Shown piece by piece: positions 2,677-57,954 of a stretch of 64,000 bases of DNA; within the stretch, counting starts at the first letter, position 1; each line of letters begins with the position of its first letter. The DNA lies in contig JADCJL010000023.1 of the NCBI GenBank assembly GCA_020247055.1, positions 25,296-89,295 of the forward strand. The letters are read 5' to 3'. The position numbers and the translations under genes are program-made. This DNA comes from Acidobacteriaceae bacterium. Its GTDB lineage: Bacteria; Acidobacteriota; Terriglobia; Bryobacterales; Bryobacteraceae. The notes below the pieces were generated by a model, which did not search any database, was not told where the DNA came from, and saw nothing but the letters and a program-made list of their open reading frames with translations.

Positions 2677-3918
2677 ATGCAGCTTACGCGCCGGCAGATC
2701 CTCGCTTCGGCGGCACTCCCCTGGGCTCCCAACCGGCCCAGGATCGCCGCCCTCGTCACCGAATACCGCAAGTTCTCCCACGGCCAGCATATCGTCGACC
2801 GCTTCCTCGAAGGCTACGGCTGGGACGGCGAACACCACCATCCCGCCATGGACCTGGTGGCGCTCTACGTCGACCAGCATCCCAATGGCGACCTGACCGC
2901 GGACCGCGCCAAGCGCTTCCCCGGCATGAAGGTCTACCCGACCATCGCCGAGGCGCTCACCGGCGGCACGGGCAAGCTGGCCGTCGATGGCATCATGCTC
3001 GTCGGCGAACACGGCAAGTACGAACGCAACGAGAAGGGGCAGACGAAGTACCCGCGCTACGAGTTTTTTAAAGAGATCGTCAAGGTGTTTGAGTCGAGCG
3101 GGCGCGTGGTACCCGTGTTCAACGACAAGCACCTGTCCTGGAACTGGGAGTGGGCCAAGGAGATGTACGATACGGCCCGGCGGATGAAGTTTCCGCTGAT
3201 GGCGGGCTCGAGCCTGCCGGTGACGTGGCGGACGCCATCGCTCGAGTTCCCGGCGGGCGTGAAGGTGGAAGAGGCGATGTGCGTCTGTTACGGCGGCGTC
3301 GATAGCTATGACTTCCATGGCCTCGAAACCGCGCAGTGCATGGTGGAGCGGCGGCGCGGCGGCGAGGCGGGCGTGGAATGGGTGCAGGCCTACCGCGGCG
3401 AAACCTTCTGGAAGGCCTATCAGGATAAAGTGTGGCCCACGGAGCTGGTCGAGGCCGCGCTGTGCCGCAGCCACACGCTCGTGCCGGCGCGCGAGGGCTT
3501 CAACAACATCTTCCCCACCGTCGACGACATGAAGCGCATCGTGAAGAACCCGGTGGCCTACCGCTACCGCCACGCCGATGGGTTGCACTCGACGATGATC
3601 CTGATGAGCGGACTGATCCGCGACTTCAACTTCTCGGCCAAAATCAGCGGGCAGAAGGACCTCTTCTCGACGCAGATGTACCTGCCGATGCCGGACGGCC
3701 GCACCACGCTCGCCAACTTCTTCAGCCCGCTTGTCTACAACGCCGAGCTGATGTATCTGACGGGCAAGGAGACCTATCCCCTCGAACGGACGCTGCTGAC
3801 CACCGGGCTCACCGCGGCCGGCGTCGAGAGCCTCTATCAGGGCCAGAAGCAGCTGGCCACGCCCCACCTCGGTATCCGCTACCAGGCGCCGAAAGAGTCC
3901 ACCTTCTGGAGAAGCTAA
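2677..3918 (+). CDS. Conserved protein of unknown function with Tat-like N-terminus (paralog of the next gene)
   Basis: 413 aa ORF; N-terminus MQLTRRQILASAALPWA; shares many blocks with the next gene (PRYEFFKE, VPV(F/Y)NDKHLS, LAGSSLPVTWR, ATPHLG(I/V)RY). Confidence 0.8.
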   Translation: MQLTRRQILASAALPWAPNRPRIAALVTEYRKFSHGQHIVDRFLEGYGWDGEHHHPAMDLVALYVDQHPNGDLTADRAKRFPGMKVYPTIAEALTGGTGKLAVDGIMLVGEHGKYERNEKGQTKYPRYEFFKEIVKVFESSGRVVPVFNDKHLSWNWEWAKEMYDTARRMKFPLMAGSSLPVTWRTPSLEFPAGVKVEEAMCVCYGGVDSYDFHGLETAQCMVERRRGGEAGVEWVQAYRGETFWKAYQDKVWPTELVEAALCRSHTLVPAREGFNNIFPTVDDMKRIVKNPVAYRYRHADGLHSTMILMSGLIRDFNFSAKISGQKDLFSTQMYLPMPDGRTTLANFFSPLVYNAELMYLTGKETYPLERTLLTTGLTAAGVESLYQGQKQLATPHLGIRYQAPKESTFWRS

Positions 3919-53224: not shown

Positions 53225-53893
53225 ATGGACCCCGCCCCCCAACCGGCCTTGCTCCTCGGCTCCACCGGCCTCATCGGTCGCGCTCTCCGCGACCTCCTCC
53301 TCGCCCACTCCCCCTTCCACCCTCTCACCGCCCTCGTCCGCCGTCCCTCCGGCCTCTCCCACCCCCACCTCGTTGAAATCGTCTCCAACTTCGCAGACCT
53401 CGACGCCCTCCCGCCCCCCGTTACCCTCTTCTGCTCCCTCGGCACCACCCTCAAAGCCGCCGGCTCCCCCGCGGCCTTCCGCCGCATCGACTACGAAATC
53501 CCCCTCCGCCTCGCCCAATGGGCCCGCCGCCACGGCGCCCAACACCTCCTCCTCGTCTCCTCCATCGGCGCCGATCCCCACTCCTCCAACCTCTACCTCC
53601 GCGTCAAAGGCGAACTCGAACGCGACCTCGCCGCGCTCCACTTTCCCTCCCTCGATATCTTCCAGCCCAGCGTCCTGCTCGGCCCCCGCCCCGCACTCCG
53701 CCCCGCCGAATGGATCAGCCAGCGCGTCCTCAAGGCCCTGCCCTTCCTGCTCCCCGGTCCGCTCCGGCCCTACCGCGCCATCCCCGCCGCCACCGTCGCC
53801 GCCGCCATGGCCGCCGCCGCCCGCTCCCCCCTACCCGGCCTCCGCCGCCACCGCTACGACGAAATCCTCAACTTAGCAGCACGCGCCACGTAA
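53225..53893 (+). CDS. NAD(P)H-binding / oxidoreductase Rossmann protein
   Basis: ALLLGSTGLIGRALRDLLLAHSPFHPLTALVRR; TLFCSLGTTLKAAGSPAAFRRIDYEIPLRLAQWARRHGAQHLLLVSSIGADPHSSNLYLRVKGELERDL. Confidence 0.9.
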   Translation: MDPAPQPALLLGSTGLIGRALRDLLLAHSPFHPLTALVRRPSGLSHPHLVEIVSNFADLDALPPPVTLFCSLGTTLKAAGSPAAFRRIDYEIPLRLAQWARRHGAQHLLLVSSIGADPHSSNLYLRVKGELERDLAALHFPSLDIFQPSVLLGPRPALRPAEWISQRVLKALPFLLPGPLRPYRAIPAATVAAAMAAAARSPLPGLRRHRYDEILNLAARAT

Positions 53894-54770
53894 CCACCAC
53901 CAGCGCGTGGCACACCATCGCCGCCCGAATGCTCCCCGCCTCCAAAAACGCCCGCCCATACACCCAGTGCGCCAGCGCGGCCAGCAACGCAAACCGCCAG
54001 TTCGGAAACTGCCGGAACGGCAAATGCGCCGCCCCGCACAACAGCGCCACCCCCACCTGCGCCCCCCGCCAACTCCCCATCCACTCGGCAAACCACGGCA
54101 GCAGCATCCCCCGAAACAAAAAATTCTCCCGCAGCGCCACGAAAATATAGATTCCGAAAAACGTCCCCACCGCGTTCAACAACAGCTTTTCCCAAATCCA
54201 CGGCCCCTGCCGCAACCCCGTAAACCCGATCGCCCAACCCACCGCCGCCCCCACCGGCAAAAACAGCCCATACCACCGCAGCCCAATCCCCACCTCCCGC
54301 CAGCTCGGCACAAACCCGAAACCCACCCCCGTTTGCCCCCGCACCTCCAGCACCGCCCAGATCAAAATCCGCGCCCACGCCAGCTCCCCCAGAATCGCCA
54401 GCGGCAGCTTCGCCAGCGGCGCCGGGTACAGATGCTCGCTCAGCTTGCCCAGCGTAATCGCCCCGTATAGCAGCGCGTACAGCGCATCCGTCCACCGGCT
54501 CGCCGGCAGCACGACGAACCAGAAGGCCATCACCCCGGCTACCGCTAGCACGAGAGGATGCGCCCCCACCAGCAGCGCCGGCACCGCTACGCTCACCGCC
54601 ATACTCCACGGCCGCCACCACCGCCGCGCCGCCTCGTTCCCCATCGAAAGGAACATCGCCGCTTCCAGGATCAGCGCCGCCAGCGCCGGCCCCGCCTCCT
54701 CCCAAGCGATACTGTGCGTAGAGAGATAGATTCCGCCGCCGGCCGCCAGTACCGGCAGCAACACCGCCAT
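53868..54770 (-). CDS. CPBP-family intramembrane metalloprotease
   Basis: Multiple TM segments; ALRENFLFRGMLLPWFAEW, LLCGAAHLPFRQFPNWRFALLAALAHWVYGRAF, MVCHALVVVTWRVLL. Confidence 0.82.
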   Translation of the reverse strand: MAVLLPVLAAGGGIYLSTHSIAWEEAGPALAALILEAAMFLSMGNEAARRWWRPWSMAVSVAVPALLVGAHPLVLAVAGVMAFWFVVLPASRWTDALYALLYGAITLGKLSEHLYPAPLAKLPLAILGELAWARILIWAVLEVRGQTGVGFGFVPSWREVGIGLRWYGLFLPVGAAVGWAIGFTGLRQGPWIWEKLLLNAVGTFFGIYIFVALRENFLFRGMLLPWFAEWMGSWRGAQVGVALLCGAAHLPFRQFPNWRFALLAALAHWVYGRAFLEAGSIRAAMVCHALVVVTWRVLLS

Positions 54771-55515
54771 GCTAAGCCCGTACGTCCTCATCCCCGCCCT
54801 CGTCTGCACCTCCCTAGTATCGCCAATCCGCGCCGCCGATCCGCCCCGCGACCTCGCCAAACGCATCGCCGAACGCGAGTCCGCCTCGGAAGCGGTCCGC
54901 GCCCAGTACCTCTACAAACAGCAGCTCCTCCTCGAAGAGTTCGACCAGCGCAACGTCCGCGCCGGCTACTACTCCGAACAACGCGAAGTCATCTTCTCCC
55001 CCTCCGGCGAACGCACCGAAAAACTCACCCAACCCGCCACCAACCGCCTCGTCCGCCTCCAACTCACCCCGGAAGACTTTCGCGACATCCAGGAAATCCA
55101 ACCCCTCCTCCTCACCAAAGAGCGCCTCTGGCTCTACCAAACCCAACCCCGCGGCGAAGAGACCATCGACGGCGTCCCCTGTTGGGTTCTCGCCGTCCAG
55201 CCCCGCCAGCTTCTCGACGGCCAGCGCCTCTTTGAAGGCCTCCTCTGGGCGACCCAGTCCGATTTCTCCGTCATCCGCACCGAAGGCCGCGCCGTCCCCC
55301 AGATCATCACCAAAAAAGAGGAGAATCTTTTCCCCCGTTTCACCACCATCCGGCATCGAACATCCCAGGGTTACTGGTTTCCGCAAATCGCGTTTGCCGA
55401 CGACACCCTGCCCTTTCGCTCCGGCCCCCTCAGGTTGCGTATGAAGTTAACTTTTTCGAACTATCAGCGTTTCGGCGCCGATTCCACCATTCAATTCGAG
55501 GCTCCCAAACCTTGA
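54769..55515 (+). CDS. Secreted hypothetical protein (outer-membrane lipoprotein-sorting-like fold possible)
   Basis: MLSPYVLIPALVCTSLVSPIRA signal; VRAQYLYKQQLLLEEF, EVIFSPSGERTEKL, DGVPCWVLAVQPRQ, LRLRMKLTFSNYQRFGADSTIQFE. Confidence 0.75.
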   Translation: MLSPYVLIPALVCTSLVSPIRAADPPRDLAKRIAERESASEAVRAQYLYKQQLLLEEFDQRNVRAGYYSEQREVIFSPSGERTEKLTQPATNRLVRLQLTPEDFRDIQEIQPLLLTKERLWLYQTQPRGEETIDGVPCWVLAVQPRQLLDGQRLFEGLLWATQSDFSVIRTEGRAVPQIITKKEENLFPRFTTIRHRTSQGYWFPQIAFADDTLPFRSGPLRLRMKLTFSNYQRFGADSTIQFEAPKP

Positions 55516-55685
55516 AGGTCGATCCCGGTCTGTGCGCGACGTGCCAGTACAGCCGCCGGATTGAAACCGCCCGCGGCAGCTGTTTCTTCCTCTGCGAAGT
55601 CGCCCTCACCAATAGCTCCTTCCCCAAATACCCTCCGCTGCCCGTCCTGCGCTGTCCGGCCTTTATCCCCGCGCCCGCCCCCTGA
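55512..55685 (+). CDS. 57-aa Cys-rich small protein, TTG start (absent from the supplied ORF track)
   Basis: TTG at 55512 overlaps upstream TGA (TTGA). Translation MKVDPGLCATCQYSRRIETARGSCFFLCEVALTNSSFPKYPPLPVLRCPAFIPAPAP*; CxxC, RGSxFxxC and FPKYPPLPVxxC pattern. Confidence 0.75.
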   Translation: MKVDPGLCATCQYSRRIETARGSCFFLCEVALTNSSFPKYPPLPVLRCPAFIPAPAP

Positions 55686-55727: not shown

Positions 55728-57515
55728 ATGCGCAATGTCATCTTCCTAATCCTTCCCGTTCTCCTCTCCGCCCAACCGGGCGCCCCCCAAGAGTGGCGCT
55801 CCTGGTCCGGCGGCAACGACGGCAACCGCTACTCCCCCCTCACTCAAATCAACCGCGCCAACGTCAAGCAACTCAAAGTCGCCTGGGAGTTCCAATCCGG
55901 CGACGCCGACCCCCGCGGCCGCACCGCCATCCAGTGCACCCCCATCATGGTCAATGGCGTCCTCTACGCCACCACCCCCACCCTCGACGCCGTCGCCCTC
56001 GACGCCGCCACCGGCAAACTCCTCTGGCGCTTCTCTCCGCCCTCCTCCCGCTTCCGCGGCGTCAGCCGCGGCGTCATGTTCTGGCAGGATAAATCCGAAG
56101 CCCGCGTCTTCTACGCCGCCGGCACCCAGCTCCTCGCCATCGACGCCAAAACCGGCAAAGCCATCCCCTCCTTCGGGGATAACGGCGCCGTCAACCTCGC
56201 CAAAGATCTCGACCGCGATCCCCCCGGCGCCATGAACGGCTCCTCCTCGCCCGGCGTCATCTACAAAGACCTCATCATCATGGGCTCAAGCGTCGGCGAA
56301 GGCCCCCGCATGGCCGCCCCCGGCCACATCCGCGCCTACGACGTCCGCACCGGCCAGCGCCGCTGGATCTTCCACACCATCCCCCACCCCGGCGAGTTCG
56401 GCTACGATACCTGGCCCAAGGACGCTTGGAAAACCTCCGGCGGCACCAACGCCTGGGGCGGCATCAGCGTCGACGATAAGAAAGGCGTCGTCTTCGTCTC
56501 CCTCGGCTCCCCCTCCTACGACTACTACGGCGCCGACCGCATCGGCGACAACCTCTTCGGCAACTCCATCGTCGCCCTCGACGCCAACACCGGCAAACGT
56601 CTCTGGCACTACCAGACCGTCCACCACGACATCTGGGACTACGACCTTCCCGTCAACGCCAACCTCTTCACCTGGAAAGGCAAGCCCGCCCTCGCCCAGA
56701 TCACCAAACAAGGCTACGTCTTCGTCCTCGACCGCAACACCGGCAAGCCCCTCCTCCCCGTCGAAGAACGCGCCTTCCCCGCCTCGGAAATCCCCGGCGA
56801 AGTCGCCTCCCGCACCCAGCCCGTCCCCCTCAAGCCCCCGCCCTTCTCCCCCCAGCGCTACGAACCCAGCGACGTCACCCCGGAACTGAAAGCCAAGTTC
56901 ACCGAAATGTCCAAAAACTGGATCAACGAAGGCATGTACATCCCCCCCGGCAAACGCGGCACCGCCGTTGTCCCCGGCACCGTCGGCGGCGGACTCTGGG
57001 GCGGCGCCGCCGTCGATCCCGCCAAAGGCATCCTCTACGTGAACTCGCAGAACCTGCCCACCATCATGCAGATCGTCGACGCCCCGCCCGGCAGCCCCTA
57101 CCCCTACCAACTCGGCGGCATTCGCAAACTCCGCGACGAAAAAGGCAACCCCGGCATCAAGCCCCCCTGGGGCCAGCTCACCGCCATCGACCTCAACAAA
57201 GGCGTCTTCCTCTGGCAAAAGGTGCTCGGCAAAAACAGCACCACCGAAAAAGAGGTCGGCACGGAAAACTTCGGCGGCCCCGTCCTCACCGCCGGCGGCC
57301 TCGTCTTCATCGGCGCCACCAAAGACGAAATGTTCCGCGCCTTCGACGCCGCCACCGGCGCTATCCTATGGGAAGCCAAGCTCCCCGCCGGCGGCTACGC
57401 CACCCCCGCCACCTACTCGGTCAACGGCAAACAGTACGTCGTCATCGCCTGCGGCGGAGGAGCCCGCCTCGATACGAAATCCGGAGACTCCTACGTTGCG
57501 TTTGCTCTGCCTTAG
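55728..57515 (+). CDS. PQQ-dependent (quinoprotein) dehydrogenase
   Basis: EWRSWSGGNDGNRYSPLTQINRANVKQLKVAWEF, SSPGVIYKDLIIMGSSVGEG, GTNAWGGISVDDKKGVVFVSLGSPSYDYYGADR, WHYQTVHHDIWDYDLPVNANLF, GGGLWGGAAVDPAKGILYVNSQN. Confidence 0.94.
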   Translation: MRNVIFLILPVLLSAQPGAPQEWRSWSGGNDGNRYSPLTQINRANVKQLKVAWEFQSGDADPRGRTAIQCTPIMVNGVLYATTPTLDAVALDAATGKLLWRFSPPSSRFRGVSRGVMFWQDKSEARVFYAAGTQLLAIDAKTGKAIPSFGDNGAVNLAKDLDRDPPGAMNGSSSPGVIYKDLIIMGSSVGEGPRMAAPGHIRAYDVRTGQRRWIFHTIPHPGEFGYDTWPKDAWKTSGGTNAWGGISVDDKKGVVFVSLGSPSYDYYGADRIGDNLFGNSIVALDANTGKRLWHYQTVHHDIWDYDLPVNANLFTWKGKPALAQITKQGYVFVLDRNTGKPLLPVEERAFPASEIPGEVASRTQPVPLKPPPFSPQRYEPSDVTPELKAKFTEMSKNWINEGMYIPPGKRGTAVVPGTVGGGLWGGAAVDPAKGILYVNSQNLPTIMQIVDAPPGSPYPYQLGGIRKLRDEKGNPGIKPPWGQLTAIDLNKGVFLWQKVLGKNSTTEKEVGTENFGGPVLTAGGLVFIGATKDEMFRAFDAATGAILWEAKLPAGGYATPATYSVNGKQYVVIACGGGARLDTKSGDSYVAFALP

Positions 57516-57954
57516 CCTCCTCGGCGCGCTCCTGCTCCTCGCCCAGGACCAGCCGATTCCCTACAGCCACAAAACCCATCTCAAGATGGGGCTCAAATGC
57601 AACGAGTGCCACACCATGCCCGGCAAAGGGGAAGCCGCCACCTTCCCCGCCGAATCGAAGTGCATGACCTGCCACACGGCCATCAGGAAGGAGAGCAAAC
57701 ACATCCAGCTCCTCGCCGAATACGCCGCCAAAAAAGAGCCCGTCCCCTGGGTTCGCGTCTATAAGTTACCCGGCTTCGTCTGGTTCTCCCACAAAGTCCA
57801 CACCGCCGTCGTCGATTGCGCCCAATGCCACGGCAATGTCGCCGAAAGCGAAGTCATCAAGAAGGAAAAACCCATCACGATGAACGCCTGCATGGCCTGC
57901 CACGACGAACACAAAGCCCCCAACGAATGTAACTTCTGCCACAACCCGGCCTAA
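57496..57954 (+). CDS. Multiheme cytochrome c (cytochrome c3-like), TTG start
   Basis: MRLLCLSLLGALLLLAQ signal; five CxxCH motifs (CNECH, CMTCH, CAQCH, CMACH, CNFCH); overlaps the upstream gene by 20 nt. Confidence 0.9.
   Translation: MRLLCLSLLGALLLLAQDQPIPYSHKTHLKMGLKCNECHTMPGKGEAATFPAESKCMTCHTAIRKESKHIQLLAEYAAKKEPVPWVRVYKLPGFVWFSHKVHTAVVDCAQCHGNVAESEVIKKEKPITMNACMACHDEHKAPNECNFCHNPA

Follow-up and report, generated by a model that had tools for sequence, protein, structure and literature searches.

The window analysed here is a stretch of 64,000 nucleotides from the genome of an Acidobacteriaceae bacterium (contig JADCJL010000023.1), in which a short open reading frame lies between two longer genes on the same strand. 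The features of this region are as follows.

54769..55515, + strand: 248-aa gene preceding the microprotein, with a weak LolA-like match (PF17131, E 0.08, below the cut-off)
55498..55501, + strand: GAGG, 10 nt ahead of the TTG, a candidate Shine-Dalgarno element; the motif recurs in TTG-start relatives
55512..55515, + strand: TTGA, in which the stop of the upstream gene and the TTG start overlap, read from the sequence and repeated in relatives
55512..55685, + strand: gene for a 57-aa microprotein, TTG start, TGA stop at 55683-55685 (sequence, homologues, dN/dS)
55533-55535, 55542-55544, 55593-55595 and 55653-55655, + strand: codons of the conserved cysteines C8, C11, C28 and C48
55581-55583, + strand: codon of the non-conserved cysteine C24
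55728..57515, + strand: PQQ-type dehydrogenase (PF01011, E 3e-190), 42 nt past the microprotein stop

The TTG at 55512-55514 overlaps the TGA (55513-55515) of the 248-aa frame, and the coordinates, start codon, overlap and peptide given in the initial annotation proved exact, as did its count of five cysteines (C8, C11, C24, C28 and C48). In two relatives (L003 and L004), an in-frame stop precedes the TTG by five codons and the interval contains no further start codon, which leaves the TTG as the sole usable start. A GAGG/AGAGG-type motif was present about 10 nt away, upstream of the TTG, in every TTG-start relative examined and was missing upstream of the start in the three ATG-start relatives, which suggests that the motif accompanies TTG as compensation for a weak start codon; this comparison comprises ten phylogenetically nested relatives (L001-L009 and L015). 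Other overlaps were observed in the vicinity. A CPBP/Rce1-like protease gene on the - strand (53868-54866) overlaps the LolA-like gene head-to-head by about 98 bases when both are read from their first ATGs, and the protease start probably lies further in. The PQQ-type dehydrogenase gene overlaps a TTG-start gene for a multihaem cytochrome c7/QrcA-like protein (57496-57954; NF041781, E 1e-25, below the cut-off), and the two likely constitute a periplasmic dehydrogenase-cytochrome pair.

Taken alone, the cysteine pattern of the microprotein is no more than expected by chance in such a GC-rich window, as similar C..C-C-C spacings were found in 10 cases among the 769 window open frames of at least 45 residues. 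It is homology, namely the relatives, the invariant cysteines and the dN/dS values, that sets this frame apart from chance. The initial annotation had proposed dN/dS as a check, and all within-genus pairs with a finite estimate yielded values of 0.04-0.23 in the coding frame, indicative of purifying selection, while the frames shifted by +1 and +2 displayed the reverse pattern (pN > pS). The notion that the frame is open by chance in GC-rich DNA, for which the recurrent spacings would speak, is refuted by this selection together with conservation across phyla, and we regard it as virtually untenable. On these comparative grounds 55512-55685 is a genuine gene; the proposal of a genuine small protein gains strong support from the homologues, the purifying selection, the conserved start overlap and a confident predicted fold.

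A search of 61 related genomes retrieved 24 strong places including the window's own, the relatives in the 23 further genomes having identities from 96% down to 43% (E 5e-35 to 6.5e-9). The microprotein was found in 13 of the 19 genomes of the genus and, as lower bounds, in at least 48 of 121 sampled genomes of the window's family, at least 37 of 297 in the sample of its phylum, at least 64 of 150 for Gemmatimonadota, at least 46 of 95 for Methylomirabilota, at least 18 of 201 for Chloroflexota and at least 15 of 297 for Actinomycetota, the phylum names of the last four samples being those of the named contigs from which their centre genomes came. Since it is missing from more than half of the sampled genomes, the microprotein is not generally essential. 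A cross-phylum contig scan with the pattern KYPxLPVLxC gave 357 confirmed loci, and the best 80 of these 357, which were kept, came from Acidobacteriota, Rokubacteria/Methylomirabilota, Latescibacterota, Gemmatimonadota, Chloroflexota, Myxococcota, Actinomycetota and Ignavibacteriae; by these assignments the family spans at least eight bacterial phyla. Nannocystis pusilla and Catenulispora pinisilvae are two cultivated species with members. No match was found in viral contigs or in the phage and plasmid collections, and thus nothing marks it as a phage or plasmid gene. Genomes that have the gene almost always have one copy. A rare duplication was seen in one Acidobacteria contig (L107), which carries two nearby copies at 1492-1689 and 3420-3617.

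Alignments of 23, 123 and 107 members, and of a combined set of 183, revealed C8, C11, C28, P41, P44 and C48 to be present without exception, and G6, L7, S23, F25, K/R39, Y40, L43 and V45 to be nearly fixed. All four cysteines C8, C11, C28 and C48 occur in 183 of 183 members, and the YPxxP turn is invariant or nearly so among them; for the loci from the contig scan, selection with the search pattern KYPxLPVLxC imposes part of this motif, while C8, C11 and C28 lie outside it. The window protein carries every feature of this GLCxxC-RGSxFxxC-KYPxLPVxxC family. The RGSxF-xx-C ... KYPxLPVxxC pattern, which the initial annotation had described, is a real family signature, and the homologue search it had suggested for conserved cysteines and YPxLPV recovered the same four cysteines in at least eight phyla. 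The SCFFLC cysteine pair that it had listed is not conserved, as position 24 is occupied by R, T, K, L, V or others elsewhere; C24 was seen in the window's species and in its nearest relative (L002) alone, and already the next relatives lack it. A divergent branch was observed in other Acidobacteriota (L257:2619-2789, L258:2458-2598 and L259:2240-2410), with the motif CxxCxAPP...RGSxFxxC...KYPxQPVxxC and a shortened loop linking the third cysteine to the fourth. In addition, the frame runs on without a stop into a GNAT-like (L159), a TfoX-like (L253) or an aldose-1-epimerase-like (L116) domain, these names having been read by eye. Such possible fusions were rejected as a clue to function, as the three domains differ and do not agree, and they may represent joined frames.

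The window protein matched no Pfam or NCBIfam family above the curated cut-off, and searches of PHROGs and of PDB sequences returned no usable match. Among 107 members searched, sporadic profile hits were obtained for one or two members each (E 0.004-0.1); these sub-threshold hits include the zinc domains FLYWCH, zf-RING_2 and Zn_ribbon_recom, a weak hint. A literature search for the family gave nothing specific. Judged against the collections searched, the family has no match in Pfam, NCBIfam or solved structures, and members may well be listed as hypothetical proteins in the public databases. AlphaFold models computed separately for two members showed the same secondary structure (pLDDT 87.7 and 84.2), with a predicted fold consisting of a CxxC turn, a beta-hairpin (14-18/24-28), C28, a short helix (30-33) and an extended YPxLPV-C48 tail. 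Foldseek comparison of the models with PDB and BFVD produced nothing significant, and no solved zinc fold was matched in PDB, where all E values were above 1.

The invariance of the four cysteines in 183 of 183 members renders the metal or Fe-S binding suggested by the initial annotation plausible. A chain of 57 residues with so little core would presumably need a cross-link. As the sequence has no hydrophobic N-terminal stretch, the microprotein would be cytosolic and its cysteines reduced, which would favour a metal over disulphides. HVO_0758 of Haloferax volcanii binds zinc and needs all four of its cysteines to fold (PMC10716476), and given this precedent among small four-cysteine proteins and the invariance of the four cysteines here, zinc is the metal that we propose. 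We thus lean, somewhat above even chances, towards a cytosolic microprotein folded on one Zn(II) through four cysteines, with a basic KYPxLPV face for a general partner. C8, C11, C28 and C48 would bind the single Zn(II) and hold the tiny fold together, while the conserved, basic R15, R21 and K39 along with the KYPxLPV segment would form the binding face. Against the zinc reading, the spacing CxxC-x16-C-x19-C differs from the classical paired zinc-ribbon pattern, and Foldseek matched no solved zinc fold. C8/C11 form the sole conserved CxxC in the 183-member alignment, in which C28 and C48 have no conserved nearby partner cysteine; the paired knuckles of classical zinc ribbons, including Ruc/FmdB, and of the Haloferax micro-proteins are therefore lacking. 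As far as can be judged from the alignments, the microprotein resembles known four-cysteine microproteins but departs from zinc ribbons in this feature. HVO_0758 and HVO_2753 are likewise stand-alone proteins of fewer than 70 aa with four cysteines, but have two C(P)XCG motifs in place of the CxxC-x16-C-x19-C and YPxLPV of the bacterial family, and the likeness is one of description (PMC10716476). Ribosomal chains such as 8hku_L24E, which we take to be eL24, a treble-clef zinc protein, recurred among the insignificant Foldseek hits (E 2-4). The hairpin followed by F-x-x-C is shared, whereas the fourth cysteine lies in a distant tail in the microprotein versus a C-x3-C in eL24; eL24-like homology was rejected (hhalign probability 0.2%, with an approximate archaeal L24e query sequence).

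Among the alternatives to zinc with a general partner, an iron-sulphur cluster ranks first in likelihood, followed by a Ruc-like redox switch and then by a neighbour-specific role. Four invariant cysteines within about 57 residues, starting with a CxxC, would suit an iron-sulphur cluster as in the HiPIP-like BssC/MasC subunits of benzylsuccinate-type glycyl radical enzymes, which are of similar size (about 60 aa) and also have four cysteines with a CxxC near the N-terminus; moreover, the P-V preceding a final C near G-[YF] is superficially BssC-like. Nevertheless, profile similarity to BssC is absent (hhalign probability 0.4%, with a BssC query verified against PDB 4pkc), and BssC-like homology was rejected for this reason. 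No glycyl radical enzyme appeared among the most frequent neighbour families listed (best 25 of 45-58), and many carriers belong to groups generally held to be aerobic. We consider iron-sulphur binding unlikely.

A thiol redox switch, in which oxidation would release Zn and form disulphides that turn on a chaperone-like or binding activity, has a precedent in Ruc (Rv0991c), a small four-cysteine zinc protein that occurs patchily across bacterial phyla and whose gene is repeatedly linked to chaperone genes (PMC7448276). A gene for the methionine sulphoxide reductase PMSR is a close same-strand neighbour in three loci, which would fit such a switch, but this association is limited to a small set of Acidobacteriota loci. 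Unlike ruc, the microprotein gene has no chaperone link among the listed neighbour families. Ruc furthermore combines a zinc-ribbon domain with a disordered tail, whereas the microprotein family differs in its cysteine pattern and gives no match to zinc-ribbon models. We thus deem a redox switch of this kind improbable.

The genomic neighbourhood bears on the partner. The start/stop overlap (TTGA, ATGA or GTGA) recurs in the genus relatives L002-L009 and L015 and, at the same junction, in L050 and L051; within the genus, as in a second genus of the family (G030), the gene follows a LolA-like gene with overlap. The coupling to the upstream gene put forward in the initial annotation thus stands as an overlap in these two groups, whereas a family-wide functional link does not. 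In three genomes (G007, G013 and G018) the LolA-like gene is still present, at about 60% identity, yet nothing of the microprotein follows it, and the PQQ-type dehydrogenase is conserved downstream in the closest relatives only. Outside its own clade the neighbours change completely: in Gemmatimonadota the gene comes after a YfiH-type (PF02578) or UvrC gene, in Methylomirabilota after a Nudix or enoyl-CoA hydratase gene, and in some Actinomycetota and Chloroflexota after a tRNA synthetase gene. In 70 of 166 distinct loci, the stretch of about 65 nt that precedes the first cysteine codon contains the end of a same-strand frame, not all of these frames being real genes in GC-rich DNA, and the 52 upstream frames scanned hit 45 Pfam families. 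Synteny, suggested earlier as a check, therefore offers no clue to function, and a conserved neighbourhood was rejected as family-wide evidence because each clade has its own neighbours. A partner specific to the LolA-like gene, such as an assembly or stability factor, would account for the overlap conserved in the genus and G030, but the LolA-like gene persists without the microprotein, unrelated genes (YfiH, UvrC, Nudix, tRNA synthetases) precede it in other clades, and the hydrophobic N-terminus of the LolA-like precursor suggests export, for which the microprotein has no signal; we hold this to be very improbable.

As neighbours differ by clade and the LolA-like gene persists alone, the function is not tied to a neighbour, and the occurrence of the microprotein gene as the 3' cistron of many operons that are otherwise unrelated points to a general role. 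For the preferred Zn(II)-bound microprotein, we surmise that the partner is general, probably RNA or a housekeeping protein complex as opposed to an enzyme tied to one neighbour, and that within the genus translation of the microprotein may be coupled to that of the LolA-like gene, at whose end it starts. Genes of 57 codons with a TTG start are easily dropped by gene finders, and one such gene here is a member of a strongly constrained family of at least eight phyla, for which the alignment and signature suffice to build a family model. It is possible, albeit doubtful, that this unnamed family, carried by about 40-50% of Gemmatimonadota, Methylomirabilota and this Acidobacteriota family, is anciently widespread, has a small metal-dependent fold of its own and serves a general cellular role, in translation or RNA handling for instance.
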